From Frigoribacterium sp. MEB024 (GTDB taxonomy: Bacteria > Actinomycetota > Actinomycetes > Actinomycetales > Microbacteriaceae): DNA of 64,000 nucleotides. Shown here piece after piece: positions 2,894 through 63,801 of this stretch. Numbering within the stretch: position 1 is the stretch's first letter; each line of letters opens with the position of its first letter. The notes below the pieces were generated by a model that searched no databases, was not told the DNA's origin, and was given only the letters and a program-made list of their open reading frames with translations. The stretch covers positions 1-64,000 of the forward strand of contig NZ_JXQZ01000001.1 in the NCBI RefSeq assembly GCF_000878135.1, read 5' to 3'. Position numbers and translations under genes: made by a program.

Positions 2894-4120
2894 GTGCCCG
2901 GAGCCCTTCCCCTCGGCGATCCCGCCCCCGTCGACGGACGCCTGCCCGAGACCGTCGCGGTCGGCGCGGACGACCGCAACTTCGGGGTCTACCTGCACGT
3001 CCCGTTCTGCCGCGTGCGCTGCGGGTACTGCGACTTCAACACGTACACCGGCGACGAACTGCGGGGCGCACGCCGGGACGACTACGCCGGGCAGGCCGTC
3101 GCCGAGATCGAGCTCGGGGGACGTGTGCTGCGCGAGGCGGGTCTGCCGCCGCGCCGCGCCTCCTCGGTGTTCTTCGGCGGGGGCACCCCGACGATGCTGC
3201 CCGCGGGCGACCTGACGTCGATGCTGCACGCGATGGTCGACACCTGGGGTCTCGAGCCCGGCGCCGAGGTGACGACCGAGGCGAACCCCGACTCGGTCGA
3301 CGCCGCGTACCTGCAGCAGCTCGCCGACGCCGGGTTCACGCGCGTCAGCTTCGGCATGCAGTCGGCCGTGCCGAGCGTGCTCGCCACCCTCGAGCGCACG
3401 CACGATCCCGAGCGCATCCCGTTCGTGGTGCGCTGGGCGCGTGACGCCGGGCTCGACGTCAGCCTCGACCTCATCTACGGCACGCCCGGCGAGACCCTCG
3501 ACGACTGGAGGCGTTCTCTCGACGTCGCCCTCGAGCAGCAGCCCGACCACCTCTCCGCCTACTCGTTGATCGTCGAGGACGGCACGAAGCTCGCCCGCCA
3601 GATCAAGCGCGGCGAGGTCCCGATGCCCGACGACGACACCGCGGCCGACATGTACGAGATCGCTGACGACCGGCTCGCCGCGGCCGGGTACGACTGGTAC
3701 GAGGTCAGCAACTGGTCGCGTGGCGTCGAGCACCGCTCCCGCCACAACCTGGCCTACTGGCAGGGCCACGACTGGTGGGGCGTCGGCCCGGGCGCGCACA
3801 GCCACGTCGGCGGCGTCCGGTGGTGGAACGTCAAGCATCCGGCTGCCTACCAACAACGCATGGCCGCGGGCGAGTCACCGGCCGCGGGGCGCGAGACCCT
3901 CGACGACGAGACCCGTCGGGTCGAGCGCGTCCTGCTCGGGGTGCGCATCCGCGAGGGGCTGCCGACCTCCGAGCTCGACGACGACGGGCGCCAGGCGGTC
4001 GCCGGCCTCATCGCCGACGGCTGGGTCGAGGGGCGCCCGGCCCTGCAGGGTCGCGTGGTGCTCACCCGTGAGGGTCGCCTCATGGCCGACTCCGTCGTGC
4101 GGCGCCTGCTGCCCGACTGA
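2894..4120 (+). CDS. hemW: HemW, radical SAM heme chaperone (HemN-like)
   Basis: This is a 408-residue radical SAM protein. The CxxxCxxC cluster motif is at Cys39, Cys43 and Cys46 in the context VPFCRVRCGYCDFN, followed by FFGGGTPTML and the S-adenosylmethionine-binding region. The downstream YEVSNWSR and the late GVGPGAHSHVGG motifs fit HemW, the lepA-linked HemN paralogue. HemW binds and delivers heme rather than oxidising coproporphyrinogen. The GTG start lies 2 nt after the DUF1990 stop. A hairpin terminator follows at 4215-4244, shared with the convergent DUF4870 gene. Confidence 0.93.
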   Translation: MPGALPLGDPAPVDGRLPETVAVGADDRNFGVYLHVPFCRVRCGYCDFNTYTGDELRGARRDDYAGQAVAEIELGGRVLREAGLPPRRASSVFFGGGTPTMLPAGDLTSMLHAMVDTWGLEPGAEVTTEANPDSVDAAYLQQLADAGFTRVSFGMQSAVPSVLATLERTHDPERIPFVVRWARDAGLDVSLDLIYGTPGETLDDWRRSLDVALEQQPDHLSAYSLIVEDGTKLARQIKRGEVPMPDDDTAADMYEIADDRLAAAGYDWYEVSNWSRGVEHRSRHNLAYWQGHDWWGVGPGAHSHVGGVRWWNVKHPAAYQQRMAAGESPAAGRETLDDETRRVERVLLGVRIREGLPTSELDDDGRQAVAGLIADGWVEGRPALQGRVVLTREGRLMADSVVRRLLPD

Positions 4121-4214
4121 CCCGGCGTGCCCGGATCGAGTCACGTTCTCGGTCGGCGCCCCGAGGCGACGGACCCGGAGGCACGGGCCCGGGAGGCACG
4201 GGCCCGGAACGCAG

Positions 4215-4244
4215 GAGGCGCGGCTCCCGGGGGAGTCGCGCCTC
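4215..4244. terminator. Bidirectional hairpin between convergent hemW and DUF4870 gene
   Basis: GAGGCGCGGCTCCC (4215-4228) pairs with GGGAGTCGCGCCTC (4231-4244) with one G-T pair. There is no T-tract. The stem contains one copy of the GGAGGCGCG motif that recurs through the window. Confidence 0.65.
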
Positions 4245-4274
4245 GCGTCGTGCCCGTCCGGGCCGGTCGACCGC

Positions 4275-4766
4275 CTACTTGATGAACTCGATGGTCAGCG
4301 GGTACTTGTACCACTGGCCCTTGTTGGCCGCGACGGCGGCGATGATCGAGAAGATGATGACGAGGATGCCGGCGACGAGTGCGAGCACGCCTCCGATGAC
4401 GATGATCGACAGGATCGCCGAGATCACGTAGACGATGGCCATCGTGATCTGGAAGTTCAGCGCGGTCTTGGTGTGTTCCCGGATGAACGGGCCACGGTCC
4501 TTCAACACGAGGTAGCCGACGAGAGCCGGGACGAACGCGAAGATGATGCCGCCGAGGTGGATGAGCGTCGACCACAGCTTCTCGTCCTCGGGGCGCATCG
4601 GCTGGACGGGCTGCGGCTGGTAGCCGGGCTGCTGGCCGTAGCCGGCGCCGGGCTGCTGGCCCTGACCGGGCTGCTGGCCGTGGCCGTAGGGCTGGCCGGG
4701 CTGCCCGTTCTGGCCGGGTCGCCCGTTCTGCGGGCCGTTCGGCTGGGCGGGAGGGTTCTCGGTCAT
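4275..4766 (-). CDS. DUF4870 membrane protein with Gly/Gln/Pro-rich N-terminus
   Basis: This 163-residue protein has a soluble N-terminus of about 65 residues made of repeated GQQPGQ/GYGQQP-type units. The DUF4870 core follows, starting near EDEKLWSTLIHLGG. It contains a short loop DRGPFIREHTKTALNFQ between hydrophobic helices and a last long helix ending AAVAANKGQWYKYP. It is probably an inner-membrane protein with about three transmembrane segments; the function of the family is unknown. It is monocistronic, convergent with hemW and divergent from hrcA. Confidence 0.85.
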   Translation of the reverse strand: MTENPPAQPNGPQNGRPGQNGQPGQPYGHGQQPGQGQQPGAGYGQQPGYQPQPVQPMRPEDEKLWSTLIHLGGIIFAFVPALVGYLVLKDRGPFIREHTKTALNFQITMAIVYVISAILSIIVIGGVLALVAGILVIIFSIIAAVAANKGQWYKYPLTIEFIK

Positions 4767-7192: not shown

Positions 7193-7936
7193 GTGGCGCA
7201 CTTCTACCTGGTCGACGACCTGGTCGCCGCCGAGGTCGGTTCGACCGTCGAGCTGACCGGTTCCGAGGCGCGGCACGCGGTGACGGTCAGCCGTGTCCGG
7301 GTGGGCGAAGCGCTCACCCTCGGCAACGGTCGGGGCTTGGTGGTCCAGGGCGAGGTGAGCGAGGCGGCGCCCGAGCGGCTGGTGCTGCTCGCGACGCGGG
7401 TGGTGCGGCACGAGGCGCCGACGACGCGGCTGGTCCTCGCCCAGGCCCTCGCCAAGGGCGACCGCGACGAGCTCGCGGTACAGGCCGCGACCGAGCTCGG
7501 CGTCGACGAGATCGTCCCGTGGGCCGCGGCCCGCAGCATCTCCCGTTGGGAGGGTCCCAAGGTCGCCAAGGGGCTCACCCGCTGGTCGTCGATCGTGCGC
7601 GAGGCGACCAAGCAGTCGATCCGTCCGTGGGCGCCCGAGGTGTCCGGGCTCGCGACGACGCGGCAGCTGGCCGAGCGCGCCTCCCGCGATCTCGTCCTCG
7701 TGCTCGAGCCGTCGGCCGAGCAGGCGCTCACGGCGGTCGACCTCACCGCAGGAGGCGCGGTGCCCGACCGCGTCGTCGTGGTCGTCGGTCCCGAGGGCGG
7801 GGTGTCGCCCGCCGAGCTGCAGCAGCTAGCCGAGGCCGGTGCCCGCGCCGTGCGCCTCGGGGACGCCGTCCTGCGTACCTCCACGGCCGGTCCGGCCGCC
7901 CTGTCCGTGCTGAGCGTGCGTCTCGGCCGCTGGTGA
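7193..7936 (+). CDS. rsmE: RsmE, 16S rRNA m3U1498 methyltransferase
   Basis: This is a 247-residue SPOUT-class methyltransferase. It has the N-terminal PUA-like region (SEARHAVTVSRVRVGE), then QALAKGDRDELAVQAATELGVDEIVPW, REATKQSIRPWAPEV and the knotted SAM-binding end VGPEGGVSPAEL...RLGDAVLRTSTAGPAALS. These are the diagnostic RsmE motifs. It methylates N3 of U1498 in 16S rRNA. The GTG start lies 2 nt after dnaJ, in the usual actinobacterial hrcA-dnaJ-rsmE arrangement. Confidence 0.95.
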   Translation: MAHFYLVDDLVAAEVGSTVELTGSEARHAVTVSRVRVGEALTLGNGRGLVVQGEVSEAAPERLVLLATRVVRHEAPTTRLVLAQALAKGDRDELAVQAATELGVDEIVPWAAARSISRWEGPKVAKGLTRWSSIVREATKQSIRPWAPEVSGLATTRQLAERASRDLVLVLEPSAEQALTAVDLTAGGAVPDRVVVVVGPEGGVSPAELQQLAEAGARAVRLGDAVLRTSTAGPAALSVLSVRLGRW

Positions 7937-11294: not shown

Positions 11295-12233
11295 ATGTCG
11301 ACCACCGGAGACGACCTCACCCCCTCGGCCGCGCCTCCTCGGGGGTCGACCTACCGCGCGGGGTTCGTCTCGTTCGTCGGGCGGCCCAACGTCGGCAAGT
11401 CGACGCTGACCAACGCCCTCGTGGGGCAGAAGGTGGCCATCACCTCGTCGAAGCCGCAGACGACTCGACGAGCGATCCGCGGCATCGTGCACCAGGCGAC
11501 CGGCCAGCTCGTCCTGGTCGACACCCCGGGCATGCACCGTCCGCGCACGCTGCTCGGCGAGCGGCTCAACGACATCGTCCAGACCACGCTCGGCGACGTC
11601 GACGTCATCGGGTTCTGCGTGCCGGCTGACGAGAAGCTGGGCCCGGGCGACCGGTTCATCAACGAGCAGCTCGACCAGTACCCGAGGGCCAAGAAGGTCG
11701 CGATCGTCACCAAGACCGACGCGACGTCGCGGCCGGCGGTCGCCGAGCAGTTGCTGGCGGTCAGCCGGCTGCGCGACTGGGAGGCCATCATCCCGTTGTC
11801 CGCCGTCAGTGACGTGCAGCTCGACGTCCTCACCGCCGAACTCATCAAACTCATGCCGGTGTCGCAGCCGCTCTACCCGTCCGACGCGGTGACCGAAGAG
11901 GGCCTGACCGACCGGGTGGCCGAGTACGTGCGTGAGGCCGCCCTCGAGGGCGTGCAGGACGAGCTGCCGCACTCGCTCGCCGTGACGATCGACGACATGG
12001 TCGAACGTGACGACAAGGACCTCCTCGAGATCTACGCGAACCTCTTCGTCGAGCGCGACAGCCAGAAGGCCATCGTCATCGGCAAGGGGGGTCAACGCCT
12101 GCGCGAGGTGGGTGAGCGTGCTCGGGCGCAGATCGAGCCGCTCATCGGCAAGCAGGTCTTCCTGTCGATCCGCGTGAAGGTCGCGAAAGACTGGCAGCGC
12201 GACCCGAAGCAGCTCGGTCGGCTGGGGTTCTGA
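11295..12233 (+). CDS. era: Era, ribosome-assembly GTPase
   Basis: This is a 312-residue GTPase with an N-terminal G domain: GRPNVGKST (G1), QTTRRAIRG (G2), DTPGMHRPR (G3) and VTKTDAT at the G4 position, where NKxD is usual. A C-terminal KH domain carries IGKGGQRLREVGERA. Era binds 16S rRNA and helps 30S maturation. AAAGG lies 7 nt before ATG 11295. It ends the phoH-ybeY-CNNM-era cluster. Confidence 0.96.
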   Translation: MSTTGDDLTPSAAPPRGSTYRAGFVSFVGRPNVGKSTLTNALVGQKVAITSSKPQTTRRAIRGIVHQATGQLVLVDTPGMHRPRTLLGERLNDIVQTTLGDVDVIGFCVPADEKLGPGDRFINEQLDQYPRAKKVAIVTKTDATSRPAVAEQLLAVSRLRDWEAIIPLSAVSDVQLDVLTAELIKLMPVSQPLYPSDAVTEEGLTDRVAEYVREAALEGVQDELPHSLAVTIDDMVERDDKDLLEIYANLFVERDSQKAIVIGKGGQRLREVGERARAQIEPLIGKQVFLSIRVKVAKDWQRDPKQLGRLGF

Positions 12234-13631: not shown

Positions 13632-14320
13632 TCGACATGCCCGGCCGCTCGACGGCACCCATCCGCGTCGCGCTGGTCGACGACCAGGCACTGTTCCGTG
13701 CGGGCATCAAGATGCTGGTCGGCTCGCAACCCGACCTGAAGTTCGTGGGCGAGGCCAGCAACGGCGACGAGGGCGTGGCGATGGTCGCGCGCGCCACCCC
13801 CGACGTCGTCCTCATGGACATCCGCATGCCCGTCATGGACGGCATCGCCGCCACCACCGCCGTCCTGGCGCAGGCCGAGGCCGCCTCGCGCCGTCCGCCG
13901 CGCATCATCGTGCTGACGACGTTCGACCTCGACGAGGCCGCCACCCGCGCCATCCGCGGAGGCGCGAGCGGTTTCGTCCTCAAGGACGCCGACCCCGAGT
14001 TCCTGCTCGCCGCGATCCGCACCGTGCACGCGGGCAACGCCGTGATCGCGGCGTCCGCCACGCGAGAGCTCTTCGAGCACTTCGACGGGCGTGCCTCACG
14101 CGCCCGGGCCGTGCCCGAGTCGTTCGGCACCCTCACCACCCGGGAGCGGGACATCTTCGACCTCGCGGCGCGGGGCCTCAGCAACTCCGAGATCGCGTCG
14201 CGGGAGTTCCTCAGCGAGGCGACCGTCAAGACCCACATCAGCCGTGTGCTGTCGAAGCTGTCCCTGCGTGACCGGGTGCAGCTCGTGGTCTACGCGTACG
14301 AACACGGGCTCGCCGAGTAA
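13628..14320 (+). CDS. LuxR/NarL-family response regulator
   Basis: This 230-residue protein has a receiver domain with phospho-acceptor Asp64 (VVLMDIRMPVMDG), the acidic pair DDQ near residue 18, Thr in VLTTFD and Lys in FVLKDA. A C-terminal LuxR helix-turn-helix follows (LTTRERDIFDLAARGLSNSE, then EATVKTHISRVLSKL). It is the partner of the overlapping kinase. Target genes cannot be read from the sequence. The 238-nt gap downstream carries a short 12-bp repeat. Confidence 0.92.
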   Translation: MIDMPGRSTAPIRVALVDDQALFRAGIKMLVGSQPDLKFVGEASNGDEGVAMVARATPDVVLMDIRMPVMDGIAATTAVLAQAEAASRRPPRIIVLTTFDLDEAATRAIRGGASGFVLKDADPEFLLAAIRTVHAGNAVIAASATRELFEHFDGRASRARAVPESFGTLTTRERDIFDLAARGLSNSEIASREFLSEATVKTHISRVLSKLSLRDRVQLVVYAYEHGLAE

Positions 14321-14558: not shown

Positions 14559-15890
14559 ATGAACTGGTTGCTGTCGGTCCCGTTGTTGTCGTCGACGTCG
14601 CTGCTGGTGGTGGACGTGGTCGCCGTCCTGATCGCGATCGCGCTCCTCGTCCGTCCGCGGACCCGACGGACGTGGTGGCGGTGGATCGCCCTCGCGGTCC
14701 TCGCCGGGGCCGGCCTGGGCGCCGTCGTCACCTGGTGGCTCGGCGACGTGCGCGACGTGCTGGGACTGTCGCCCACCTGGGTGGACCGTTTCTGGGTCGC
14801 CGCGGTGGTCGCCGGCCTCGGGGTGGTCGTCGTCAACCTCATCCGCACCCGGTGGTGGCGCAAGGTCGTGGCCGTCGTGGCGGTCCTGGTGTTCGCCCTG
14901 GCCGGCGGACTGGCGCTGAACCGGGACGGCAGCGTGTACCAGAACCTGTCGCAGGCGCTCGGCCTGGACGAGGTGCCGGCTCTTCCGGCGACCGCCACCG
15001 CGCCTCCGTCCGCGGCCTCCGCGTCGACGGAGTTCGACCCGACCCTCTGGTCGACCTGGAAGGCCCCGTCCGACCTGCCCGCCACGGGCCGGTACGGCAG
15101 CGTGTCCATCCCCGGCACGGTCTCGCACTTCCCGGCACGCGACGCCGTCGTCTACCTGCCTCCGGCGGCCCTCGTGGCGAACGCCCCCGCCCTCCCCGTG
15201 ATGATCATGATGTCGGGGCAACCGGCCGAACCGAGCTCGGTGGTCACGGCCGGCCACCTCGTCGAGACGCTCGACGCCTTCGCGGCGAAGAACCATGGTC
15301 TCGCACCGATCGTCGTCGTCCCCGACCAGTTGAGTGCCGACGCGCACAACCCGATGTGCGTCGACGGCGTCCTGGGCAACAGCGCCACCTACATCACCAC
15401 CGACGTGGTCGACTACATGACGAGCCACTTCCACGTGGCCTCCGGCCCGAGGGCGTGGGCGGTCGGCGGGTTCTCGCAGGGCGGTACCTGCTCGATCCAG
15501 TTCGCCGCGTCGCGACCCGACCTGTTCTCGACCTTCATCGACGTGTCGGGTGAACTCGGCCCGTCGATCGGCGACGAGAAGACCACGATCGACCAGGGCT
15601 TCGCCGGGAACCGAGCGGCCTACGAGGCGGCCCAACCGCAAGCGATCATGGCGAAGCACGGGCCCTACGCGGACACCGCGGCGTTCTTCGCCGTCGGTGC
15701 GACCGACGGCCCGTACGGTCAGATCATGACGGTGAACTCGGCGGCGGCGGCGAAGGCGGGCATGGCGGTGACGCGCTACGTCTCACCGGGCAGCGGACAC
15801 GACTGGACGACCGCGACCAACGGCTTCGCCCACGGCATCGGGCAGTTCTACCCGCGCCTCGGCCTGAGCGCGGCGGTGCAGACCCCGTGA
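14559..15890 (+). CDS. Membrane-anchored alpha/beta-hydrolase (esterase, Ag85-like fold)
   Basis: This 443-residue protein begins with four hydrophobic helices (about residues 1-125). An extracytoplasmic serine-hydrolase domain follows with the nucleophile elbow GGFSQGGTCSIQFAA, a strand LPVMIMMSG for the oxyanion region, and a C-terminal His in SPGSGHDWTTA. The layout resembles esterase D or mycolyltransferase-like proteins. ATG 14559 is preferred because GAAAGAAG lies just upstream and the first helix starts here. The stop overlaps the next start as GTGA, so it is coupled to the DUF2156 gene. The substrate is unknown; a lipid or envelope ester is plausible. Confidence 0.82.
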   Translation: MNWLLSVPLLSSTSLLVVDVVAVLIAIALLVRPRTRRTWWRWIALAVLAGAGLGAVVTWWLGDVRDVLGLSPTWVDRFWVAAVVAGLGVVVVNLIRTRWWRKVVAVVAVLVFALAGGLALNRDGSVYQNLSQALGLDEVPALPATATAPPSAASASTEFDPTLWSTWKAPSDLPATGRYGSVSIPGTVSHFPARDAVVYLPPAALVANAPALPVMIMMSGQPAEPSSVVTAGHLVETLDAFAAKNHGLAPIVVVPDQLSADAHNPMCVDGVLGNSATYITTDVVDYMTSHFHVASGPRAWAVGGFSQGGTCSIQFAASRPDLFSTFIDVSGELGPSIGDEKTTIDQGFAGNRAAYEAAQPQAIMAKHGPYADTAAFFAVGATDGPYGQIMTVNSAAAAKAGMAVTRYVSPGSGHDWTTATNGFAHGIGQFYPRLGLSAAVQTP

Positions 15891-18487
15891 GCGCCGACGT
15901 GACCGAGGCCGGCCCGGACGCACCGACACCGCCCGATCCCCACGAGCCCGTGCCCCACGAGCCGGGGCGGGTGCGACAGGTCGCAGAGGGCATCGGCACC
16001 CGTGTGGTGGCGTTCGCCCGCGTCCGTCCCGTGAGTCTCGCGCTCGCGCTGCTGCTCGTCGTGCTGGCTCTCGCCTCGGGCAGCCTCACGCACGCTCCGA
16101 GCGAGCGGCTGCGGGAACTCGTCGGCGCGGGGCTCGACCCCTTCGAGGACCGCACCTCATGGCTGCTCGTCTTCGGGTCGGTGTTCTTCGCCGGCGGTCC
16201 CGCCCAACTCGTCCTGGCCGTGGTCGGCGTCCTCGTGCTCGTGGGCGCCGCCGAGCGCCGCATGGGCCCGCGCCGCACGGTCGCGGCCTACCTCGTGACG
16301 GCCGTCGTGGCGACCGGCGTCGGCGTCGCGGTCCAGGCCCTGGGGCAGGCGCTCGGCGAGACCTGGGCCGTCGAGGTGGCCGCCGAGTCCACCCTCCACC
16401 CGCTCACGCCGGCCCTCGGCACGATCATGACCGCCAGCGCGTTCTCCGGACCGCTCTGGCGACGCCGCATCCGGCTGGTCGGCTTCTCGTTCGTGTTCGC
16501 CTTCGTGCTGTACGACGGGCATCCCTCGGGTCTCTACGCGCTCCTCGGCGCCCTGGTCGGGCTCGCGTTCGGGGTGGTCCTGGCCGGCCGTCCCGCCGAG
16601 CGCGGATGGCTGCGCAGCTCGCACCACGAGGTGCGACGCCTCGCCTCGACCATAGTCGCCGTGACGGCCCTCGGTCCCGTCCTGACCCTGCTCACCCGCA
16701 GCCCCATCGGGGCGCTCTCGCCCCTCGGCATGCTGTTCCGTGACGTCCTGCCGGGGCGGTCGCTCTCGGCCGCCTGCGCGGCGGCGGGACAGGGCGCACC
16801 CGACCGGCACGCGCCCCCGATCGGGGCCTGCGCGCGGGCCGCGGCCCTCGCGGGCATCGACACCGTGCCGACGGTCCTGCTCAGCCTCCTCCCGCTGGCG
16901 GTGCTGCTCGTGTGCGCCTGGTACCTGCGGCGTGGTCGTCGCCTGGCCCTCGACGTGGCCGTCGCGGTCAACGGGCTGCTCGCCGTCTTCGCCGGTCTCT
17001 ACTACGTGGTGCTCCCCGTCACGACCGATCCGGTCGTCGACCAGCCCCGCCACGTGGTCGAGAGGGGCGTGCTCGCCGTGCTGGCGGTCGCCGTGCCGGC
17101 CGCGGTCGCCGTCGGACTGTTCCTCCTCCGTCGTCACTTCGGCATCGGGGCCGAGGGGACGCGACGGCCGCGGTTCGCCCTCGTCGTCGTGCTGTCGGGT
17201 GTCGTGCTGGCGGTGACGTTCGCCGTCCTCGCGTGGCTGGGGCGCGCCTCCTTCGTGCCGACGATCGAACCGTGGACGCTGCTGCTCGACGTGCCCGAAC
17301 GCTTCGTGCCGGTCGGTTTCGTCGGGCTCACCCGCATCGGGCCGGTGCCCGACGGCGGCGTCGTCCGGGCCGCGTTCGAGTGGGTGGGGCCGCTCTGGTG
17401 GCTCGTCGTGCTGGTCGGGCTCGTGGTGGGTGCGACACGGCCGGGGGACGTCCGTCCCGACGCGGCGCGTGCCCAGGTGCGCGAGATCGTCCACCGGGGT
17501 ACGCCGGGCACGTTGTCGCACATGGCCTTGTGGGAGGGCAACCGGTACTGGTTCACGGCCGACGCTCGCGCGGCCGTCGCCTATCGCGTCGTCGCGGGGA
17601 TCGCGGTCACCACGGGTGAGCCCTTGTGCCCGGCCGACCGGCTCCCCGAGGTCACGCGTGAGTTCGCGCGCTGGTGCGACGACCAGGGGCTCACCCCGGT
17701 CTTCTACAGCGTGAGGGGCGAACTCTCGCCCCTCTTCGCCGACATGGGCTGGTCGACGCTGCCCGTCGGCGAAGAGACCGTGCTCCACCCGGCCACCTTC
17801 GCCATGACCGGCAAGAAGTGGCAGGACGTCCGGTCGAGCATCAACCGCGCGACCAAGAACGGGGTCCGGGCCGAGTGGACCCGCTACGCGGAGCTCCGGC
17901 CCGCGGTCGCCCGCCAGATCGGCGAGATCAGCGAGCAGTGGGTCGCCGAGAAGAACCTGCCCGAGATGGGCTTCACACTCGGCGGCGTGGACGAGTTGCG
18001 TGACCCCGACGTGGCGCTGATGCTCGCACTGGACGAGGACGACTCGGTCCAGGCCGTGACGAGCTGGTTGCCCTCCTGGCGCGACGGAGAGGTCGTCGGC
18101 TGGACGCTCGACTTCATGCGACGCCGACCCGACAGCATGAACGGCGTGATGGAGTTCGTCATCGCCTCGTCGGCACTGGCCATGAAAGAGCAGGGGGTCG
18201 AGTTCCTCAGCCTGTCGGCGGCACCGCTCGCGACGAGCGCGTCCTCCGACGGCCCGGCGTCACAGACCGAACGTGTGCTCACCTTCCTCGGACGGGTGCT
18301 CGAACCGGCCTACGGCTTCCGGACCCTGCTGACCTTCAAGAAGAAGTTCCAGCCCGAGTTCGTGCCCCTCGTCATGGCCTTCCCCGATCCCGTGCAGCTG
18401 CCGGCCATCGGCACGGCCCTCGGTCGCGCCTACCTGCCCGACCTCTCGGTCGGTGCCGTCGTGCGGCTCGTCCGCACGGTGGTCTGA
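15887..18487 (+). CDS. MprF-like DUF2156 protein with rhomboid-like membrane region
   Basis: This 866-residue protein has multiple transmembrane helices from about residue 40 to 515. The early ones (FFAGGPAQLVLAVVG, then RRTVAAYLVTAV) look rhomboid-like, but no catalytic Ser/His pair is obvious. The C-terminal 330 residues form the DUF2156 (LPG synthase) domain, with GNRYWFTADARAAVAYRVV, GEPLCP, SVRGELSPLF, WQDVRSSINRATKNGVR and FLSLSAAPLA. MprF enzymes transfer lysine or alanine from tRNA to phosphatidylglycerol. It lies downstream of, and coupled to, the membrane esterase, suggesting a joint role in envelope lipid modification (inference). A strong hairpin follows at 18501-18545. Confidence 0.85.
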   Translation: MSADVTEAGPDAPTPPDPHEPVPHEPGRVRQVAEGIGTRVVAFARVRPVSLALALLLVVLALASGSLTHAPSERLRELVGAGLDPFEDRTSWLLVFGSVFFAGGPAQLVLAVVGVLVLVGAAERRMGPRRTVAAYLVTAVVATGVGVAVQALGQALGETWAVEVAAESTLHPLTPALGTIMTASAFSGPLWRRRIRLVGFSFVFAFVLYDGHPSGLYALLGALVGLAFGVVLAGRPAERGWLRSSHHEVRRLASTIVAVTALGPVLTLLTRSPIGALSPLGMLFRDVLPGRSLSAACAAAGQGAPDRHAPPIGACARAAALAGIDTVPTVLLSLLPLAVLLVCAWYLRRGRRLALDVAVAVNGLLAVFAGLYYVVLPVTTDPVVDQPRHVVERGVLAVLAVAVPAAVAVGLFLLRRHFGIGAEGTRRPRFALVVVLSGVVLAVTFAVLAWLGRASFVPTIEPWTLLLDVPERFVPVGFVGLTRIGPVPDGGVVRAAFEWVGPLWWLVVLVGLVVGATRPGDVRPDAARAQVREIVHRGTPGTLSHMALWEGNRYWFTADARAAVAYRVVAGIAVTTGEPLCPADRLPEVTREFARWCDDQGLTPVFYSVRGELSPLFADMGWSTLPVGEETVLHPATFAMTGKKWQDVRSSINRATKNGVRAEWTRYAELRPAVARQIGEISEQWVAEKNLPEMGFTLGGVDELRDPDVALMLALDEDDSVQAVTSWLPSWRDGEVVGWTLDFMRRRPDSMNGVMEFVIASSALAMKEQGVEFLSLSAAPLATSASSDGPASQTERVLTFLGRVLEPAYGFRTLLTFKKKFQPEFVPLVMAFPDPVQLPAIGTALGRAYLPDLSVGAVVRLVRTVV

Positions 18488-20455
<1,968 letters not shown>

Positions 20456-20644: not shown

Positions 20645-20650
20645 GGGGGC

Positions 20651-21524: not shown

Positions 21525-22268
21525 GTGCCCGTCTACCGTGATGAATGCGTCGTGTTGCGCACCCACAAGCTGGGTGAGGCCGACCGCATCCTCACGATGC
21601 TCAGCCGCAACCACGGCAAGATCCGGGCCGTGGCCAAGGGCGTCCGGCGGACGGCCTCGAAGTTCGGCGCGCGCCTCGAGCCGATGATGGTCGCCGACCT
21701 CCAGCTGTACGAAGGCCGCTCGCTCGACATCGTGCAGCAGGCCGAGTCGCTCGGCTCGTACGGCGCCGTGATCGCGGCCGACTACGAGAGCTACACGGCC
21801 GGCAGCGTCATGGTCGAGACGGCCGACAAACTGACCGAGGCCGAGGCGGGTCTGCAGCAGTACCTCCTGCTCGTCGGGGCCCTCCGTTCGCTTGCGCGGC
21901 ACGAGCACGCCCCCCAGCTCACGCTCGACTCGTACCTCCTGCGTGCGCTCAGCATCGCGGGCTGGTCGCCGAGCTTCGGCGACTGTGCCGTGACCGGTGC
22001 CCCCGGGCCGCACTCGGCCTTCGTCGTCCAGCTCGGTGGCGTGGTGACCGACTCGCACGCGCCTCCGGGCGCTCCGCGGTTGACGCAGGAGGCGCTGGCC
22101 CTGTTGGGCGCGCTGCTCACGGGGGACTGGGACCACGCCGAAGACGCGCCCGACGCGACCCGCAACCAGGCGAGCGGCGTCGTCGCCGCCTACACGCAGT
22201 GGCACCTCGAACGGGGACTGCGATCGCTGCAGCACGTCGACCGGGTGCCCGGAAGGGAGAGACAGTGA
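21525..22268 (+). CDS. recO: RecO, DNA repair and recombination mediator
   Basis: This 247-residue protein has the N-terminal OB-fold with [32 protein letters not shown] and the helical RecO_C domain (residues about 90-240, [18 protein letters not shown]). RecO loads RecA with RecR on SSB-coated single strands. The usual CxxC zinc pair is not obvious; only one cysteine occurs in the FGDCAVTG region. The start at GTG 21525 is fixed by the divergent gene and the -10 spacing. It overlaps uppS by 4 nt (GTGA). Confidence 0.93.
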
Positions 22269-32481: not shown

Positions 32482-32519
32482 AGGAGGCGCGGGTCCTCCC
32501 CAGCCCCGCCGCGCCTCCT
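32482..32519. terminator. Hairpin terminator after dgt, paired GGAGGCGCG motifs
   Basis: AGGAGGCGCGG (32482-32492) is the exact complement of CCGCGCCTCCT (32509-32519), with a 16-nt loop and no T-tract. It separates dgt from the dnaG promoter. Confidence 0.7.
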
Positions 32520-36341: not shown

Positions 36342-36422
36342 CGCGCCTCCCTGGTCCCTGAGCCCCGCCGGTCCGCCGGCCGGGCTCGGGGGCCGGGGGA
36401 CTCCGCACCACGGCCGCACGCC

Positions 36423-42602: not shown

Positions 42603-42645
42603 CGAAGGAGGCGCGTCCTGCTGTTCGCAGGACGCGCCTCCTTCG
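42603..42645. terminator. Perfect 19-bp hairpin between tRNA-Asn and def
   Basis: CGAAGGAGGCGCGTCCTGC (42603-42621) is the exact complement of 42627-42645 with a 5-nt loop. Both arms carry GGAGGCGCG. It lies 23 nt after the def stop and probably terminates both strands. Confidence 0.8.
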
Positions 42646-44286: not shown

Positions 44287-45570
44287 GTGACACCTGCCCC
44301 GACGCCCTCGGAACCCGGCCGACCCGACGACGCGACGTCGGCTGACGCCGCGACCCGCGCCTCCTCGGGGTCGTCCGGCCGGCTGACCGTCCTCATCGCG
44401 GGCGACACGTTCCCGCCCGACGTCAACGGTGCCGCCAACTTCACCGAGCGGCTCGCCGTCGGTCTCGCCCGGCGTGGGCACGACGTCCACCTCATGGTGC
44501 CGGCGGCCAGCCGCCACCACGGCACCTTCCTCGAGCAGCACGGCGGCGTCACGTTGACCGTCCACCGGCTCTACTCGACGCGCTGGCCCCTGCACGACTG
44601 GCTGCGCTTCGCGACCCCGTGGCGCGTGCAAGAGCACGCCGAGAAGATCTTCGACGAGATCCACCCCGACGTCGTGCACATCCAGTCGCACATCGTGATG
44701 GGCCGCGGCGTGGCGCAGGTCGCCGAGCGCCGGGGCGTGCGCATCGTGGCGACGAACCACTTCATGCCCGAGAACCTGCTCGAGCACACCGGCCTGCCCA
44801 AGGGGCTGCGCGCCAAGGCGACCCAGATGGCGTGGAACGACGCGAGCAAGACCTTCCGCAAGGCCGCGGCCATCACGACACCCACACAGAAGGCCGCGAC
44901 CTTCCTCGAGAAGTCGGTCTCGGTCACCGGTGTGCTCGCCGTCTCGTGCGGCATCGAGGCCGGCCACTACACGGCCCTCGACACCCGCCCCGAGACGAAC
45001 CGCATCGTCTTCGTCGGCCGGGTCACGGCCGAGAAGCAGATCGACGTGCTGCTCAAGGCGATGACCCTCCTCGACCCGGCGCTCGGCGCCACCTTGACGA
45101 TCGTGGGCGGGGGAGATCTGTTCAAGCAGCTCCAGACGACCAGTCGCGACCTGGGGCTGGCCGACGTGGTCACCTTCGCGGGCTATCTGTCCGACGACGA
45201 GTTGCGCCACACGCTCACCGAGTCGACCGTGTTCGCGATGCCCTCGATCGCCGAGTTGCAGAGCATCGCCAGCCTCGAGGCGATGGCGTCCGGGCTGCCG
45301 ATCGTCGTGGCCGACGCGATGGCTCTGCCGCACCTGGTCGACGAGGGCGAGAACGGCTACCTCTTCCGTCCGGGCGACAGCCGCGACCTCGCCGACAAGC
45401 TCACGACGGTGCTGACCGCACCCGACGACGAGTACCTCGCCATGCGCCGGGCCAGCCTGAAGATGATCGAGGGGCACGACATCGAGCGCACGCTCAGCGT
45501 GTTCGAGAGCCTGTATCGTGGTCAGCCGGTGGTTCCCTCCACCGACGCGGCGTCCGACCGCGCGCACTGA
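44287..45570 (+). CDS. Family 4 glycosyltransferase (GT-B fold)
   Basis: This 427-residue cytosolic or membrane-associated enzyme has an N-terminal GT4 domain (VLIAGDTFPPDVNGAANFTERLAVGLARRGH, HIQSHIVMGRGV, ATNHFMPENLLEH) and a C-terminal donor-binding domain (IVFVGRVTAEKQIDVLLKAM, then MPSIAELQSIASLEAMASGLPIVVADAMALP with the ExxxxxxE-type motif). It resembles phosphatidylinositol or glycolipid mannosyltransferases of actinobacteria, but the acceptor cannot be fixed. GTG 44287 is preferred over ATG 44236 because the upstream frame is untypical; GAGAAGGA lies about 13 nt before it. Confidence 0.88.
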   Translation: MTPAPTPSEPGRPDDATSADAATRASSGSSGRLTVLIAGDTFPPDVNGAANFTERLAVGLARRGHDVHLMVPAASRHHGTFLEQHGGVTLTVHRLYSTRWPLHDWLRFATPWRVQEHAEKIFDEIHPDVVHIQSHIVMGRGVAQVAERRGVRIVATNHFMPENLLEHTGLPKGLRAKATQMAWNDASKTFRKAAAITTPTQKAATFLEKSVSVTGVLAVSCGIEAGHYTALDTRPETNRIVFVGRVTAEKQIDVLLKAMTLLDPALGATLTIVGGGDLFKQLQTTSRDLGLADVVTFAGYLSDDELRHTLTESTVFAMPSIAELQSIASLEAMASGLPIVVADAMALPHLVDEGENGYLFRPGDSRDLADKLTTVLTAPDDEYLAMRRASLKMIEGHDIERTLSVFESLYRGQPVVPSTDAASDRAH

Positions 45571-47661: not shown

Positions 47662-47680
47662 GACACGCAGGAGGCGCGCC

Positions 47681-48322
47681 ATGAGCACCAAGAAGATCGT
47701 CGCCCTGTCCGCGGGGCTGAGCCAGCCCTCGTCCACCCGTCTGTTGACCGACCGTCTGGTCGAGGCCACCACGCGCGACCTCGTTGGCCGCGGCTCGTTC
47801 GTCGAGGTCGAGGTCGTCGAGCTGCGTGACCTCGCGCACGAGGTGACGGACGCGATGCTCACCGGCTTCGCGCCTCCTGCCCTCGCCGAGGCGCTCGAGA
47901 AGGTGTCGAGCGCCGATGGCGTGATCGCGGTCACACCCGTCTTCTCGTCCTCGTACAGCGGCCTGTTCAAGTCGTTCGTCGACGTGATGGACCACAAGGC
48001 GCTCACGGGCACGCCCGTGCTGATCGGGGCGACCGGAGGCACGGCCCGCCACTCGCTCGCCCTCGAGTACGCGGTGCGACCGCTGTTCGCCTACCTCCAG
48101 GCCGTCGTCGTGCCCACCTCGGTGTTCGCGGCGTCCGAGGACTGGGGAGAGGGCGACGGCACCTCGACCACGCTGCCCGAGCGCGTGACGCGGGCCGCGG
48201 GGGAGTTCGCCGAGCTCGTCGCCCGGCACGAGGGCGCGCTCGACGACCCGTTCGCCGCGGTCGTCCCCTTCGACGAACAGCTGCGACGCCTCGCCGTGGG
48301 CGGCGACGACCCGCAGCCCTGA
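47681..48322 (+). CDS. LLM-partner FMN reductase (CE1759 family)
   Basis: This 213-residue NAD(P)H-dependent flavodoxin-fold reductase carries IVALSAGLSQPSSTRLLTDRL (phosphate-binding loop), ADGVIAVTPVFSSSYSGLFKSFVDVMD and VLIGATGGTARHSLALEYAVRPLF. It supplies reduced FMN to the monooxygenase encoded just upstream. The ribosome-binding site AGGAGG is part of an AGGAGGCGCG motif (47669-47678). A hairpin of paired motifs follows the gene. Confidence 0.9.
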   Translation: MSTKKIVALSAGLSQPSSTRLLTDRLVEATTRDLVGRGSFVEVEVVELRDLAHEVTDAMLTGFAPPALAEALEKVSSADGVIAVTPVFSSSYSGLFKSFVDVMDHKALTGTPVLIGATGGTARHSLALEYAVRPLFAYLQAVVVPTSVFAASEDWGEGDGTSTTLPERVTRAAGEFAELVARHEGALDDPFAAVVPFDEQLRRLAVGGDDPQP

Positions 48323-48331: not shown

Positions 48332-48395
48332 CGAGGAGGCGCGGTGCCGGTCTCGACCACGTCCCGCCCGTCGGGGCATGAACCGCGCCTCCTCG
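48332..48395. terminator. Hairpin of paired GGAGGCGCG motifs after the FMN reductase
   Basis: CGAGGAGGCGCGGT (48332-48345) is the exact complement of ACCGCGCCTCCTCG (48382-48395), with a 36-nt loop. It ends the LLM operon; the DUF1684 gene starts 33 nt later. Confidence 0.65.
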
Positions 48396-49327: not shown

Positions 49328-50989
49328 GTGTTCTTCCTGCTGCGTCGCCTGCCCGACGGCGACGTCGAGCTGACGCGGTACGAGCGCGGCGCGTCGGGGC
49401 GACTCGAGGCGGCAGGGGTCGACGTCATCCCCGCGGCCGACCTGCCGGGGCGCGTGGCCGCCCTCGAGCGCGAGGCCTCGCCCCGCTGGGTCTGGGACGA
49501 CACCCCGCGGTGGTACCCGCGCCTCCTCGACGCCGGGGTCACGGTGGCCCGCTGCGTCGACCTCCGGCTCGTGCACGCCATCCTGCGGCGCTCGACGGCG
49601 GCCCCCGGCTTCCCGGTCGGAGGTGCGGCTCCCGGGCCGTGGGACGTCCCCCAGGCGGCGCCGGGGGAGTCCGACGGCCTCTTCGAGGTCGTCCCCGACT
49701 CGCTGCCGGACCCGGCCGCCGAGTTCCTCGCCCAGCGCGACGCGGTCGAGGCCTCTCCGACCCGGGGTCGACTCGAGCTGCTCGTCGCCGCCGAGTCCAC
49801 CGGCGCGTTGATCGCGGCCGAGATGCGCCACCGGGGCATCCCGTGGTCGCCTCGGGTGCACGACGAACTGCTGACCGCCGCCCTCGGGCCGAGGCCCACC
49901 CCGGGTGAGCGACCGGCCCGCATGCGCGACGCCCTCGACGAGGTGCGGCAGGCGCTCGAGGCGCCCGACCTCAACCCCGACTCGCCGGCCGAGCTCATCA
50001 GGGCACTGAACCGCGCGGGCGTGCTCGTGCAGTCGACGCGTCAATGGGAACTGCAACGGCACGAGCACCCCGCGATCGAACCCCTGCTCCGCTACAAGAA
50101 GATGCAACGACTGCTCGTCGCCAACGGCTGGGCCTGGCTCGACGCCTGGGTGCACGGCGGGCGCTTCCGCCCCGACTACGTGCCGGGCGGAGTCGTGACC
50201 GGCCGCTGGGCCACGAGCGGAGGAGGCGCGCTGCAGCTTCCGCGGGCCGTCCGCGGCGCCGTCGTGGCCGACCCGGGCTGGAAGCTCGTGGTCGCCGACG
50301 CCTCGCAACTCGAGCCGCGCATCCTGACCGGGTTGTCGGGCGACCGCTCGATGGCCCGGGCCGGATCGGGCGACCTCTACGAGGGCATCGTCGCCAGCGG
50401 AGCCGTCGCGACCCGCGCCGAGGCCAAGGTCGCGATGCTCGGTGCGATGTACGGCGCGACGCAGGGCGAGAGCGGCCGCCTCGTGCCCCGCCTGGCCCGA
50501 CGGTTCCCCGACGCCATGGCACTCGTCGAGTCGGCGGCCCGCACGGGTGAGGCCGGGGGAGTCGTCGACACCCTGCTCGGTCGGAGTTCGCCGCGTCCGT
50601 CCGACGACCCGGCCGCTTCCGGGGGCGCCGGGGCGGGCGCACTGCCTCCCGAGATGGGCGTGCGGCCCGCCGATCGCGACGCGCGCTCGTGGGGGCGGTT
50701 CACCCGCAACTTCGTCGTCCAGGGCACGGCCGCCGAGTGGGCCCTGTGTTGGATGGGTGCCCTGCGCCGACGCCTGCACGAGAGGTGGGGGGCCGGCGTC
50801 CCGGCACCCCACTTCGTGTTCTTCCTGCACGACGAGGTGGTCGTGCACGCACCGGCCGCCGCCGCCGACGAGGTCGCCGCGCTGGTCGCCGAGAGCGCGG
50901 TCGAGGCCGGTCGACTGCTGTTCGGCGACGCCCCGGTCGCCTTCCCGGTGACGGTCGCCGTCGTGGACGACTACTCGCAGGCGAAGTGA
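49328..50989 (+). CDS. Family A DNA polymerase (bifunctional 3'-5' exonuclease/polymerase type)
   Basis: This 553-residue enzyme has an N-terminal degenerate 3'-5' exonuclease-like region (about 1-170) and a polymerase domain: motif A VVADASQLEPRIL, motif B RAEAKVAMLGAMYGATQGESG and motif C FFLHDEVVVHAP. YKKMQRLL marks the thumb. It lacks the 5' nuclease domain of Pol I and is much shorter than PolA, so it is a second, accessory family A polymerase, as seen in many actinobacteria. Motif A has EPR where ELR is usual. GTG 49328 fits the frame. Confidence 0.88.
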   Translation: MFFLLRRLPDGDVELTRYERGASGRLEAAGVDVIPAADLPGRVAALEREASPRWVWDDTPRWYPRLLDAGVTVARCVDLRLVHAILRRSTAAPGFPVGGAAPGPWDVPQAAPGESDGLFEVVPDSLPDPAAEFLAQRDAVEASPTRGRLELLVAAESTGALIAAEMRHRGIPWSPRVHDELLTAALGPRPTPGERPARMRDALDEVRQALEAPDLNPDSPAELIRALNRAGVLVQSTRQWELQRHEHPAIEPLLRYKKMQRLLVANGWAWLDAWVHGGRFRPDYVPGGVVTGRWATSGGGALQLPRAVRGAVVADPGWKLVVADASQLEPRILTGLSGDRSMARAGSGDLYEGIVASGAVATRAEAKVAMLGAMYGATQGESGRLVPRLARRFPDAMALVESAARTGEAGGVVDTLLGRSSPRPSDDPAASGGAGAGALPPEMGVRPADRDARSWGRFTRNFVVQGTAAEWALCWMGALRRRLHERWGAGVPAPHFVFFLHDEVVVHAPAAAADEVAALVAESAVEAGRLLFGDAPVAFPVTVAVVDDYSQAK

Positions 50990-51738: not shown

Positions 51739-51774
51739 GAGGCGCGGGTGGCGTGATCACGCCACCCGCGCCTC
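51739..51774. terminator. Perfect 36-nt palindromic terminator between DUF3145 gene and fabF
   Basis: GAGGCGCGGGTGGCGTGA (51739-51756) is followed directly by its exact complement, giving 18-bp arms with no unpaired loop. The right arm contains CGCGCCTCC; the left copy lacks the first G of the motif. It serves convergent genes. Confidence 0.8.
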
Positions 51775-51791
51775 CTGCGCTGCCCGCCCGG

Positions 51792-60267: not shown

Positions 60268-60314
60268 GTCCCCGGGCCACTGCCCAGGAGGCGCGGGTCG
60301 GCTCGTCCACCCGC

Positions 60315-61898: not shown

Positions 61899-62759
61899 AT
61901 GGACGGACGACCACAGGAGCCGGTCGACGGGGCGCAGGTCGAGGGCGCAGCGACCGAGCACACGACGACGACCGGTCGGGGCAGCGGCGTCGCGGTCGCC
62001 CTGACGTTGCCGGTGGCCCTCGTCGTGGGCTGGATCGTGCAACTCGCGGCCGTCCTCTCGCGCCTCCTCGAGCCGACCGACGATCCGACGGGCGGCTTCG
62101 GCCTCACCGGGTGGCTCGTCGTCGGTGCCGCGATCGGCGTCGGCGTGCCGCTGGTCGTGTTCGTCGGGCAGGTGCGCGCCCGGCGCCGCGACCCGTCGCT
62201 CTCGGGCGTGGCCTTCGTCGTGGCCACCCTCGTGCTCGTGGTCGGACTCGTGACCTGTGGACTCGCCGTCGTCCTGCAGTTCTCCTCTGTGGCGGCGGAC
62301 CGGTACCGGACGGCGCAGCCGCCGTCCGTGGCCGAGCAGCGGTACACGGGCGAGGAGGCCGGCGACGAGCTGCGCGCGCTCGGTGACGACACCGTCCGAG
62401 CCCTCGGCGGCGATCCGACCGAGGGCTTGCGCGCCGACGGCTCGACCGTCCGGGCGTACAGCGAGGAGTGCCTCCTCGACAACGACAATCCCGGGGTCGT
62501 GTGGAGCTACTCGTACTCCGCGGACGGCCTCGTCGACGCGTCCGGCGGACCACTGCTGCCCGACGGGGTCCACGTGCTGCCGGGCACCCGCACCGACCTC
62601 GACGGCGTGCGCGAGCTCTGGTCGAGCGAGGGGATCGGGGCCGAGCAGGACCTGGTCGACTTCGACCAGATCGTCCCCGAAGCCGACTGGCTCGAGCGGT
62701 GGTCGTATGTACGGGCCGGGCCGACGGTCGACATCACGACGATCTGCCTGGTGCCGTGA
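61899..62759 (+). CDS. Hypothetical membrane protein with extracytoplasmic C-terminal domain
   Basis: This 286-residue protein has a Thr/Gly-rich N-terminus and then three hydrophobic helices: about 30-52, 69-90 and 104-126 (FVVATLVLVVGLVTCGLAVVL). The remaining 155 residues form an acidic, probably extracytoplasmic domain with two Cys (EECLLDND and TTICLVP) that could form a disulfide. I do not recognise a family. ATG 61899 is preceded by ACAGGGGG. The 179-nt gap before it shows no clear gene. Confidence 0.65.
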   Translation: MDGRPQEPVDGAQVEGAATEHTTTTGRGSGVAVALTLPVALVVGWIVQLAAVLSRLLEPTDDPTGGFGLTGWLVVGAAIGVGVPLVVFVGQVRARRRDPSLSGVAFVVATLVLVVGLVTCGLAVVLQFSSVAADRYRTAQPPSVAEQRYTGEEAGDELRALGDDTVRALGGDPTEGLRADGSTVRAYSEECLLDNDNPGVVWSYSYSADGLVDASGGPLLPDGVHVLPGTRTDLDGVRELWSSEGIGAEQDLVDFDQIVPEADWLERWSYVRAGPTVDITTICLVP

Positions 62760-62819
62760 CGGTCGAGTCCGGTCCGGCGCCGGCGCGCTGATCGGCACTC
62801 ACCCGGGCGGCAGCCGGGG

Positions 62820-62825
62820 TATCGT
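62820..62825 (+). promoter_or_regulatory. -10 hexamer TATCGT of the esterase gene
   Basis: TATCGT lies 7 nt before GTG 62833. Confidence 0.45.
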
Positions 62826-62832
62826 CGCGGCC

Positions 62833-63801
62833 GTGACCACGCGCCTCCCTCGGATGCCCTCCCGCGCCTCCCGCACCTCCCGCGAGACCGTCCGGGTGCC
62901 CCTCGCCGCGAGGCTCGTCCTGCCCCGGGCGGCGGTCCCGGCGTTCCTGCGGGCGACGGGGGCGAACCGCACCTTCGTCACCGAGGCCGGGGCGCGTCGG
63001 CGCATCCGTCGGTCGTCCCTCCGCCCGGCACCGTACGGCCCGCCTGCCGTCCTCCGGGACGACGTCCGGGTCGACGTCGAGCAGCGCGGCGGCTGGCCGG
63101 TCTACACGATCACGCGGCGTGACGGTGCGTCGCGCGGCACCGTCGTATACGCCCACGGCGGCGGCTGGGTGGGCGAGATCGTGTCGCAGCACTGGCACCT
63201 CGCCGCCCAGCTCTCCGCCGAGGTCCGCACGACGGTCGTCCTGCCGATCTACCCGCTGGTCCCGTACGGGACGGCCGAGGAGGCGCGGGTCGGCATCCTC
63301 GACCTGGTCGCGTCGGCAGACGGCCCGGTCGCCCTCGCCGGGGACTCGGCCGGCGGCCAGATCGTGCTGTCGGCCGCCCTGTCGTTGCGTGACGCGGGCG
63401 TCGTCGTCGCCCGCACGGTGCTGATCGCCCCCGCGCTCGACCTGACCTGGGGCAACCCCCGCATCCCCGAGGTGCAGCCGTCCGACCCGTGGCTCGGGAC
63501 GCCCGGCGGACGCGTGCTCGCCGAGCACTGGCGGGGCGAGCTCGACCTGCGCGACCCCGTCGTCAGCCCCTTGTTCGGCGACCTCTCGCGGCTGGGCCCG
63601 GTGACGGTGTTCACGGGGACGCGGGACGTCCTGAACCCCGACGCGCACCTCCTTCGCGACCGTGCCGCGGCGGCCGGCGTCGAGCTCGAGTGGCACGAAG
63701 GGGAGGGCGACGTGCACGCCTACCCGCTGCTGCCCACTCGATCGGGTCGTGCCGCCCGGGCGCAGATCGTCCGGACGCTCCGCCGCTCGCTCGCGTCCTG
63801 A
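62833..63801 (+). CDS. Alpha/beta hydrolase, HSL (family IV esterase) type
   Basis: This 322-residue esterase has the oxyanion-hole motif VVYAHGGGWVGE, the nucleophile Ser in LAGDSAGGQIVLSAA, the acidic residue near GTRDVLNPDAHLL and His in GDVHAYPLLPT. This is the hormone-sensitive-lipase layout. There is no signal peptide; the N-terminal 50 residues are Arg-rich. The substrate is unknown. The start rests on the TATCGT hexamer 7 nt upstream of GTG 62833. Confidence 0.85.
   Translation: MTTRLPRMPSRASRTSRETVRVPLAARLVLPRAAVPAFLRATGANRTFVTEAGARRRIRRSSLRPAPYGPPAVLRDDVRVDVEQRGGWPVYTITRRDGASRGTVVYAHGGGWVGEIVSQHWHLAAQLSAEVRTTVVLPIYPLVPYGTAEEARVGILDLVASADGPVALAGDSAGGQIVLSAALSLRDAGVVVARTVLIAPALDLTWGNPRIPEVQPSDPWLGTPGGRVLAEHWRGELDLRDPVVSPLFGDLSRLGPVTVFTGTRDVLNPDAHLLRDRAAAAGVELEWHEGEGDVHAYPLLPTRSGRAARAQIVRTLRRSLAS

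Follow-up and report, generated by a model that had tools for sequence, protein, structure and literature searches.

A recurrent word in the window and its genome

The window analysed here comprises the first 64,000 nucleotides of contig NZ_JXQZ01000001.1 (C1) from Frigoribacterium sp. MEB024. Along it a ten-base word, AGGAGGCGCG, recurs on both strands, within genes as well as between them, and a sequence-only reading of the same stretch had proposed it as a possible DNA uptake signal. With strands merged, GGAGGCGCG is the top 9-mer of the window and AGGAGGCGCG the top 10-mer. The 9-mer has 39 matches, 18 on the plus and 21 on the minus strand; the earlier hand count was right for the plus strand and too low, at 19, for the minus strand, and all 19 coordinates that it named are recovered among the matches. 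Its estimate of about 28 copies extending to the 10-mer proved exact (28 of 39; 15 plus, 13 minus). In 100 dinucleotide shuffles of the window, AGGAGGCGCG appears 0.84 ± 0.88 times (maximum 3), in agreement with the earlier expectation of fewer than one copy. The copies are as follows.

3155..3164, minus, AGGAGGCGCG
4213..4222, plus, AGGAGGCGCG
7676..7684, minus, GGAGGCGCG (9-mer)
7750..7759, plus, AGGAGGCGCG
11330..11339, minus, AGGAGGCGCG
13958..13966, plus, GGAGGCGCG (9-mer)
14999..15007, minus, GGAGGCGCG (9-mer)
17243..17252, minus, AGGAGGCGCG
18504..18513, plus, AGGAGGCGCG, left arm of an inverted pair; the pair folds at -37.7 kcal/mol, z -3.61
18533..18542, minus, AGGAGGCGCG, right arm (partner 18504..18513), same fold
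22058..22066, minus, GGAGGCGCG (9-mer)
24221..24230, plus, AGGAGGCGCG
24976..24985, plus, AGGAGGCGCG
25147..25156, plus, AGGAGGCGCG
29086..29095, plus, AGGAGGCGCG
29433..29441, plus, GGAGGCGCG (9-mer)
29543..29551, minus, GGAGGCGCG (9-mer)
32482..32491, plus, AGGAGGCGCG, left arm; the inverted pair lies upstream of dnaG (32583-34490); -23.6 kcal/mol, z -2.79
32510..32519, minus, AGGAGGCGCG, right arm (partner 32482..32491), same fold
33909..33918, minus, AGGAGGCGCG within dnaG
36342..36350, minus, GGAGGCGCG (9-mer)
38513..38521, minus, GGAGGCGCG (9-mer), unchanged in all 13 aligning genus genomes (14 compared)
39031..39040, plus, AGGAGGCGCG, unchanged in 11 of 13 aligning genus genomes (14 compared)
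41329..41337, plus, GGAGGCGCG (9-mer); 3 of 14 relatives have a preceding A and so the full 10-mer
42606..42615, plus, AGGAGGCGCG, left arm of a perfect hairpin lying 3' of the peptide deformylase gene (42669-43235, minus); -44.3 kcal/mol, z -7.93
42633..42642, minus, AGGAGGCGCG, right arm (partner 42606..42615), same fold
44356..44365, minus, AGGAGGCGCG within a glycosyltransferase gene, intact only in the five nearest relatives among the 14 genus genomes
47669..47678, plus, AGGAGGCGCG, two bases ahead of an FMN-reductase start codon (ATG); this is presumably the single copy at a Shine-Dalgarno position
47869..47878, minus, AGGAGGCGCG
48334..48343, plus, AGGAGGCGCG
48384..48393, minus, AGGAGGCGCG
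49518..49527, minus, AGGAGGCGCG within a DNA polymerase A-like gene; all 14 genus genomes have it intact
50221..50230, plus, AGGAGGCGCG within the same DNA polymerase A-like gene; relatives have point variants in place
51739..51746, plus, GAGGCGCG (8-mer), left arm of a hairpin (partner 51767..51776)
51767..51776, minus, AGGAGGCGCG, right arm (partner 51739..51746); -38.8 kcal/mol, z -5.80
60286..60295, plus, AGGAGGCGCG
62059..62068, minus, AGGAGGCGCG
62840..62848, minus, GGAGGCGCG (9-mer)
62863..62871, minus, GGAGGCGCG (9-mer)
63278..63287, plus, AGGAGGCGCG

A count over the whole genome (3,406,371 bases in 136 contigs), which had been proposed as a check, found 1,420 copies of AGGAGGCGCG (722 plus, 698 minus) compared with 10 of the reversed word (5 on each strand). 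The over-representation of AGGAGGCGCG is real and genome-wide. Equal counts for matched 10-mers or codon-shuffled genes, or a lack of genome-wide enrichment, which the earlier reading had named as grounds for abandoning it, were not found.

The word is also sharply defined. Over 224 kb of C1 there are 70 exact copies of AGGAGGCGCG, whereas any one of its single-mismatch words is seen 0 to 6 times; the exception is base 1, where variants are more frequent (13 C, 14 G, 2 T). The same holds in G202, a 3.71-Mb Frigoribacterium genome in a single contig that was sampled as twenty 20-kb stretches (400 kb). Here, 164 exact copies were found; base 1 again varies (48 C, 32 G, 9 T), base 10 does so slightly (8 A, 9 C and 13 T, or 30 variants vs 164 exact copies), and the variants at all other positions number 0 to 7 each. 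On C1, the conserved unit is about 10 bases long, and its flanks carry little signal. Two low-GC stretches of G202, the only two looked at, hold no copy in 40 kb; reading them as accessory DNA is an interpretation.

Genomic context of the copies

Genes in the 224 kb of C1 and in G202 were called with our own GC-frame heuristic rather than a standard gene finder. On C1, where coding sequence makes up 89.6% of bases, 37 of the 70 copies are coding and 33 are intergenic or span a gene edge. The coding copies occupy all six frames, 16 in sense (1, 10 and 5 per frame) and 21 in antisense (10, 7 and 4), as expected from the earlier description of copies lying between genes and within genes in different frames. 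The codon-aware background that had been called for was obtained by shuffling synonymous codons. On C1, 200 shuffles gave 6.5 ± 2.4 coding copies (maximum 14) against the 37 observed, while 100 shuffles of G202 gave 10.4 ± 3.0 (maximum 17) against 80, with coding copies there likewise spread over all six frames. For G202, the codon and gap analyses cover 18 of the 20 samples, the two copy-free samples being omitted.

Intergenic copies on C1 are densest in convergent gaps (15 in 4.3 kb), followed by tandem (15 in 13.3 kb) and divergent gaps (2 in 5.1 kb), with one of the 33 non-coding copies unplaced among these classes. G202 has 84 non-coding copies, of which 76 could be placed: 28 in 7.9 kb of convergent, 31 in 21.2 kb of tandem and 17 in 15.0 kb of divergent gaps. 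Inverted pairs less than 60 bp apart take in 18 of the 70 copies on C1, consistent with the pairs at gene ends noted from the window. Four pairs of the window were folded and form hairpins (-23.6 to -44.3 kcal/mol); such hairpins may terminate transcription. Only one of the 70 copies lies at a Shine-Dalgarno position; placement on the sense strand ahead of a start codon is not the rule.

Strand orientation

The strand symmetry described for the window extends beyond it. There are 34 plus and 36 minus copies in the 224 kb of C1, and 81 plus and 83 minus copies in the twenty samples of G202, which are near-balanced sample by sample regardless of gene direction (the position of the origin was not mapped). 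Local balance in G202 is tighter than chance (chi-square 5.05, 18 degrees of freedom, lower-tail P 0.0012), also when close inverted pairs are removed (chi-square 5.63, P 0.0025). Neighbours less than 60 bp apart are opposed in 11 of 18 cases in G202.

A separate observation concerns neighbours 200 to 500 bp apart. Every such pair is opposed on C1 itself (6 of 6) and in G202 (11 of 11; L118 to L137), as are 7 of 9 at 14 additional Frigoribacterium loci that correspond by orthology to a portion of the window. Among the matches listed for contigs C2 to C4 and read by eye, three such pairs are opposite and one is alike. The tendency towards opposite orientation at this distance is strong, though not absolute.

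Distribution, conservation and turnover

One protein encoded in the window has a 99% match in Frigoribacterium sp. Leaf8. All 16 Frigoribacterium genomes searched (own included) carry AGGAGGCGCG in excess, at 513 to 1,570 copies vs 10 to 51 of the reversed word. A broader draw from the family covered 199 Microbacteriaceae genomes of 85 genera, four of the genomes being Frigoribacterium. Among the 195 genomes of the 84 other genera, the highest count is found in G055 of genus g55 (216 vs 75 for the control), and minor excesses occur in G008 (52 vs 14), G119 (41 vs 13) and G051 (10 vs 2). This count in related genera had likewise been suggested as a check. At high copy number, AGGAGGCGCG is restricted to one genus.

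Conservation was assessed for 11 copies in window positions 37.5 to 57.5 kb across 14 genus genomes, i.e. 154 site-by-genome cells, 31 of which were not fully aligned. Of the 123 aligned cells, 72 are intact compared with 41.4 expected from 10-mers within 150 bp (the genomes are not independent). The excess is present in the five nearest relatives as well as in G200, G210, G203 and G167. In the other direction, the 14 relatives contain 117 copies, 104 of them fully aligned. Seventy-two of these are identical in the window, while 18 differ at one base, 3 at two, 9 at three and 2 at four. Copies are thus gained and lost by point mutation in place.

Related words in other genera

Related words were sought by ranking 6-mers on 40 to 224 kb per genome. 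GGAGGC heads the list in the window's genome, in G199 and in G055, and comes second in G178 and G021. In 16 other pilus-bearing genera, GGATGC ranks first in 6 and within the top 11 in 10, whereas it ranks 56 to 892 in four pilus-lacking genomes (G014, G017, G024 and G034), a contrast that is too small and is superseded by the 199-genome count given below. In the named loci, some of which are orthologues of each other, GGATGC takes first place in Cryobacterium (132 kb, z 9.6) and sixth place in Agromyces. The GGATGC word GGATGCCGC has 62 copies in 104 kb of Agromyces loci and 0 to 5 in those of Streptomyces, Micromonospora, Nonomuraea, Actinoplanes and Nocardiopsis. In the four drawn Frigoribacterium genomes it is at control level (96/100, 91/121, 107/124 and 106/104), and in other genera it reaches hundreds of copies, up to 2,858.

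A further word, AGGATGCCC, was counted in 50 genomes, where it is found 500 times in G150, 353 times in G057 and 14 to 164 times in the other 48; the reversed word is low everywhere and makes a poor baseline. As the word of the whole genus g5, AGGATGCCC was dropped. The core is GGAGGC in g1 and g55 and GGATGC elsewhere, with CAGGATGCCC in G150. CAGGATGCCCG of G150 and CAGGAGGCGCG of Frigoribacterium are alike at 9 of 11 bases, and the sole tree made, of 21 pilus loci (pilB, pilC, pilM), places G150 nearest Frigoribacterium. The words with a GGATGC core and those with a GGAGGC core may be dialects of a single signal.

Candidate uptake machinery

A type IV pilus operon and genes for ComEA and ComEC are all present in the window's genome. 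The pilus genes run along contig C106, adjoining genes that read like rpoC and rpoB. Profile matches above cut-off include the PilT/PilU family (466 vs 319.1 bits), PilM (157.1 vs 133), T2SSF (PilC), prepilin peptidase domains and the prepilin N-terminal domain (PilA and a PilW-like protein). The PilB equivalog falls below its cut-off (626.4 vs 675.65), though the T2SSE domain scores 466.4 bits, and so does PilV (26 vs 52.2); the PilX-like and PilN/O-like proteins of C106 gave no profile match and are named by position. Two of the minor-pilin-like genes of the operon (L143:2937-6816) are long, at 471 and 593 amino acids. The three minor-pilin-like proteins diverge strongly between genomes (42 to 65% identity), and a comparison of four genomes puts the isoelectric point of the PilW-like minor pilin at 9.2 to 9.8. 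AGGAGGCGCG itself is not enriched in the operon, with 7 copies in the 20 kb of L143 vs about 8 expected from the genome average.

ComEA and ComEC are encoded on C92. ComEA matches HHH_3 at 73.3 bits (cut-off 27) and the comE subfamily at 96, below the cut-off of 152.35; ComEC matches Competence at 124.3 (cut-off 23) and its equivalog at 134.2, below 190.05. In this assembly, the comEC frame continues into holA as one frame of 1,161 amino acids (L112:7586-11071). The comEA-comEC-holA run lies near the end of C92 and is followed by an rpsT-like gene and two more called genes, while lepA is at window 58-2112 on C1. A Tad-like locus on C61 (L144:10260-13313) contains an ATPase with 152 bits to T2SSE, and TadB- and TadE-like genes identified by reading only. 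Its presence beside the type IV pilus means that there are two candidate filaments in this genome.

Across the 199 family genomes, ComEC is useless as a discriminator, being present in 197, while PilT (E up to 1e-60) is found in 100. The GGATGCCGC excess is associated with PilT, with a median ratio of 6.2 vs 2.2 (Mann-Whitney p 4.8e-7, phylogeny ignored), and 64 of the 100 genomes with PilT have at least 200 copies of GGATGCCGC and a ratio of at least 4.

Is the word a DNA uptake sequence?

The density, sharpness, symmetry, use of frames, concentration and pairing at gene ends, genus restriction and turnover of the word, together with the related words of other genera and the type IV pilus, ComEA and ComEC genes of this genome, mostly agree with the earlier proposal of an uptake signal. 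We therefore consider it probable (about 0.62) that AGGAGGCGCG is a DNA uptake sequence, which would be read during DNA uptake. This estimate is kept from going higher by the excess of GGATGC words in genomes without PilT and PilB. The presumed reader in this genus would be the type IV pilus, perhaps through a basic minor pilin (the PilW-like one), and not the Tad-like filament. If the uptake apparatus prefers DNA tagged with AGGAGGCGCG, a competent Frigoribacterium would import mainly DNA of its own genus. Point mutation would create and destroy copies, and biased uptake followed by recombination would spread word-carrying versions. Copies would persist where they do little harm, i.e. at gene ends and at tolerant sites inside genes, and opposed pairs at gene ends may double as terminators.

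Several observations weigh against this reading. Of the 99 genomes without PilT, 27 have at least 200 copies of GGATGCCGC together with a ratio of 4 or higher to the reversed word (2,858 copies in G142); three of these 27 are 90% complete or less, and none has PilB. The PilB search covered 70 genomes and gave three matches (G195, G025 and G063), all in PilT-bearing genomes, and none in 67 of the 99 PilT-less ones. In genus g79, GGATGCCGC numbers 681 in the genome with PilT vs 932 and 2,858 in two without. The reversed word is also a poor baseline for GGATGCCGC, as the ratio exceeds 2 even without PilT. The AGGATGCCC excess is seen in G150 only of three genomes in genus g5, and again in G057, which lacks both PilT and PilB. 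In the pilus-gene tree, the GGATGC-bearing G150 sits between two GGAGGC groups, so a single dialect change is insufficient, and the ranking of over-represented words gave no clear word for the pilus-bearing genera G132 and G071. The depletion of divergent gaps is weak in G202 (17 copies in 15.0 kb). Conservation between strains, a further check that had been suggested, holds overall, but five of the 14 relatives (G035, G110, G207, G208 and G199) show nil or slight excess over expectation.

As a strict requirement for GGATGC words, the type IV pilus thus fails. It is not required for GGATGCCGC, if GGATGCCGC belongs to the same word family, and cannot be the whole story. In PilT-less carriers, either another filament acts, or the pilus was recently lost, or the word has another reader. 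In such carriers, something other than a type IV pilin might read the word, or Tad pili may serve. A broader version of the uptake reading would be that Microbacteriaceae have their own self-DNA code, whose core is GGATGC in many genera but GGAGGC in Frigoribacterium and g55, and which is read by the uptake apparatus; this would be a third independent origin and the first Gram-positive one, with close lineages capturing a change of dialect. We rate this broader version slightly better than even.

The same excess of GGATGC words without PilT and PilB would suit a binding site for a chromosome protein (nucleoid, condensin-like or repair), with GGAGGC here and GGATGC elsewhere and no relation to uptake, as would the symmetric genome-wide spread. 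We regard such a site as unlikely, given that concentration at gene ends, hairpin pairs and differing core words match the pattern described for uptake sequences in the parts of PMC3630211 available to us. A DNA-methylation target or biased-repair site has a precedent in HIP1, an iterated word tied to orphan methyltransferases in the portion of PMC4390886 consulted. That word is a palindromic octamer, whereas AGGAGGCGCG, ten bases long, is not a palindrome and clusters at gene ends, which makes this explanation quite improbable.

Signals of the Chi, KOPS or AIMS type are skewed to one strand per replication arm. AGGAGGCGCG resembles them in being short, non-palindromic, G-rich and over-represented, and a Chi-type site had been listed as an alternative from the start, but the near balance of strands over C1 and the G202 samples disfavours any such recombination site or replication-oriented signal, and we excluded this class as very unlikely. 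The word also contains AGGAGG, some copies form hairpins and one sits at a Shine-Dalgarno position, so that terminator stems, Shine-Dalgarno sites and codon bias might add up with no single function behind them. Codon shuffles yield only about 1/6 to 1/8 of the coding copies, these lie in both sense (16) and antisense (21), and the excess is absent from the other Microbacteriaceae genera. Shine-Dalgarno sites or codon bias alone are ruled out by the shuffles and the single such copy in 70, and the summed effects are highly improbable. High copy number, both orientations and many intergenic copies could likewise point to a mobile or repeat element (REP-like, or a miniature transposable element). 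However, conservation is confined to about 10 bases, the flanks showing little signal, and orthologous sites mostly differ by point changes in aligned flanks rather than by insertions; this point-wise turnover rules out a mobile element for practical purposes.

Comparison with known systems

The DNA uptake sequence of Neisseriaceae is a 10-mer with about 1,900 copies in meningococcus and gonococcus, for which intergenic regions are permissive; it forms inverted pairs at terminators, has group dialects and is recognised by a type IV minor pilin (passages of PMC3630211 and PMC6370729). As far as those passages go, AGGAGGCGCG is alike in length, high copy number, intergenic preference and inverted pairs at gene ends. 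It differs in the word itself (GCCGTCTGAA there), in its host, a high-GC actinobacterium, and in that a related word also occurs in genomes without PilT and PilB. The uptake signal sequence of Pasteurellaceae is a word of roughly 9 bases with hundreds to thousands of copies and dialects (parts of PMC5031613 and PMC12616744), resembling AGGAGGCGCG in approximate length and copy number, and perhaps in having dialects. There, the word and the phylum are different, and uptake has been demonstrated.

Among actinobacteria, Micrococcus luteus is transformed by means of a Flp/Tad pilus with ComEA and ComEC, and the transformation passages of PMC4322843 and PMC6370729 mention no uptake word. ComEA, ComEC and a Tad-like locus (C61) are shared by the window's genome, which additionally has the pilB-pilT-pilC-pilM type IV pilus. 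HIP1 of cyanobacteria is likewise an iterated, genome-wide and group-specific word in the portion of PMC4390886 consulted; its palindromic form and its link to methyltransferases set it apart.

According to the part of a 2025 paper available to us, Neisseriaceae and Pasteurellaceae are the only families known to have such tags. In the open-licence literature, neither AGGAGGCGCG nor its complement was found as printed text, nor an uptake sequence in connection with Frigoribacterium or Microbacteriaceae, nor, judged from titles and abstract starts, an actinobacterial uptake word. AGGAGGCGCG may be the first example of such a self-DNA tag from a Gram-positive lineage. If so, there would be a third system, this one in a monoderm phylum; it would show that tagging of self-DNA has evolved repeatedly, and would point to natural transformation across a large actinobacterial family, with many genera available for comparing reader and word. 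In addition, donor DNA supplied with the word might allow harmless members of the genus to be transformed in the laboratory.

Other over-represented words

Further words stood out in other genomes. GAAATTCAGG occurs 11 times in 60 kb of G111 (L169 to L171; 67% GC), where 0.09 would be expected. GAGCTG/CAGCTC is over-represented in Micromonospora loci (z 18.1), G178 (z 8.7; L200 to L202) and Streptomyces loci (z 8.2). The top 6-mer of G034 (L194 to L196) is GGATCC, at 131 places in 60 kb (262 over both strands; z 9.7), a palindrome that could be a methylation-linked word.

The window itself contains a second repeat, CAGGAGTTGCCGA, with 8 exact copies at positions 86, 20560, 20631, 20721, 27363, 28422, 28505 and 46262, compared with none in 100 shuffles. 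Around 20560 to 20760 it belongs to a longer, partly repeated unit, and CAGGAGTTGC recurs in G199 too.

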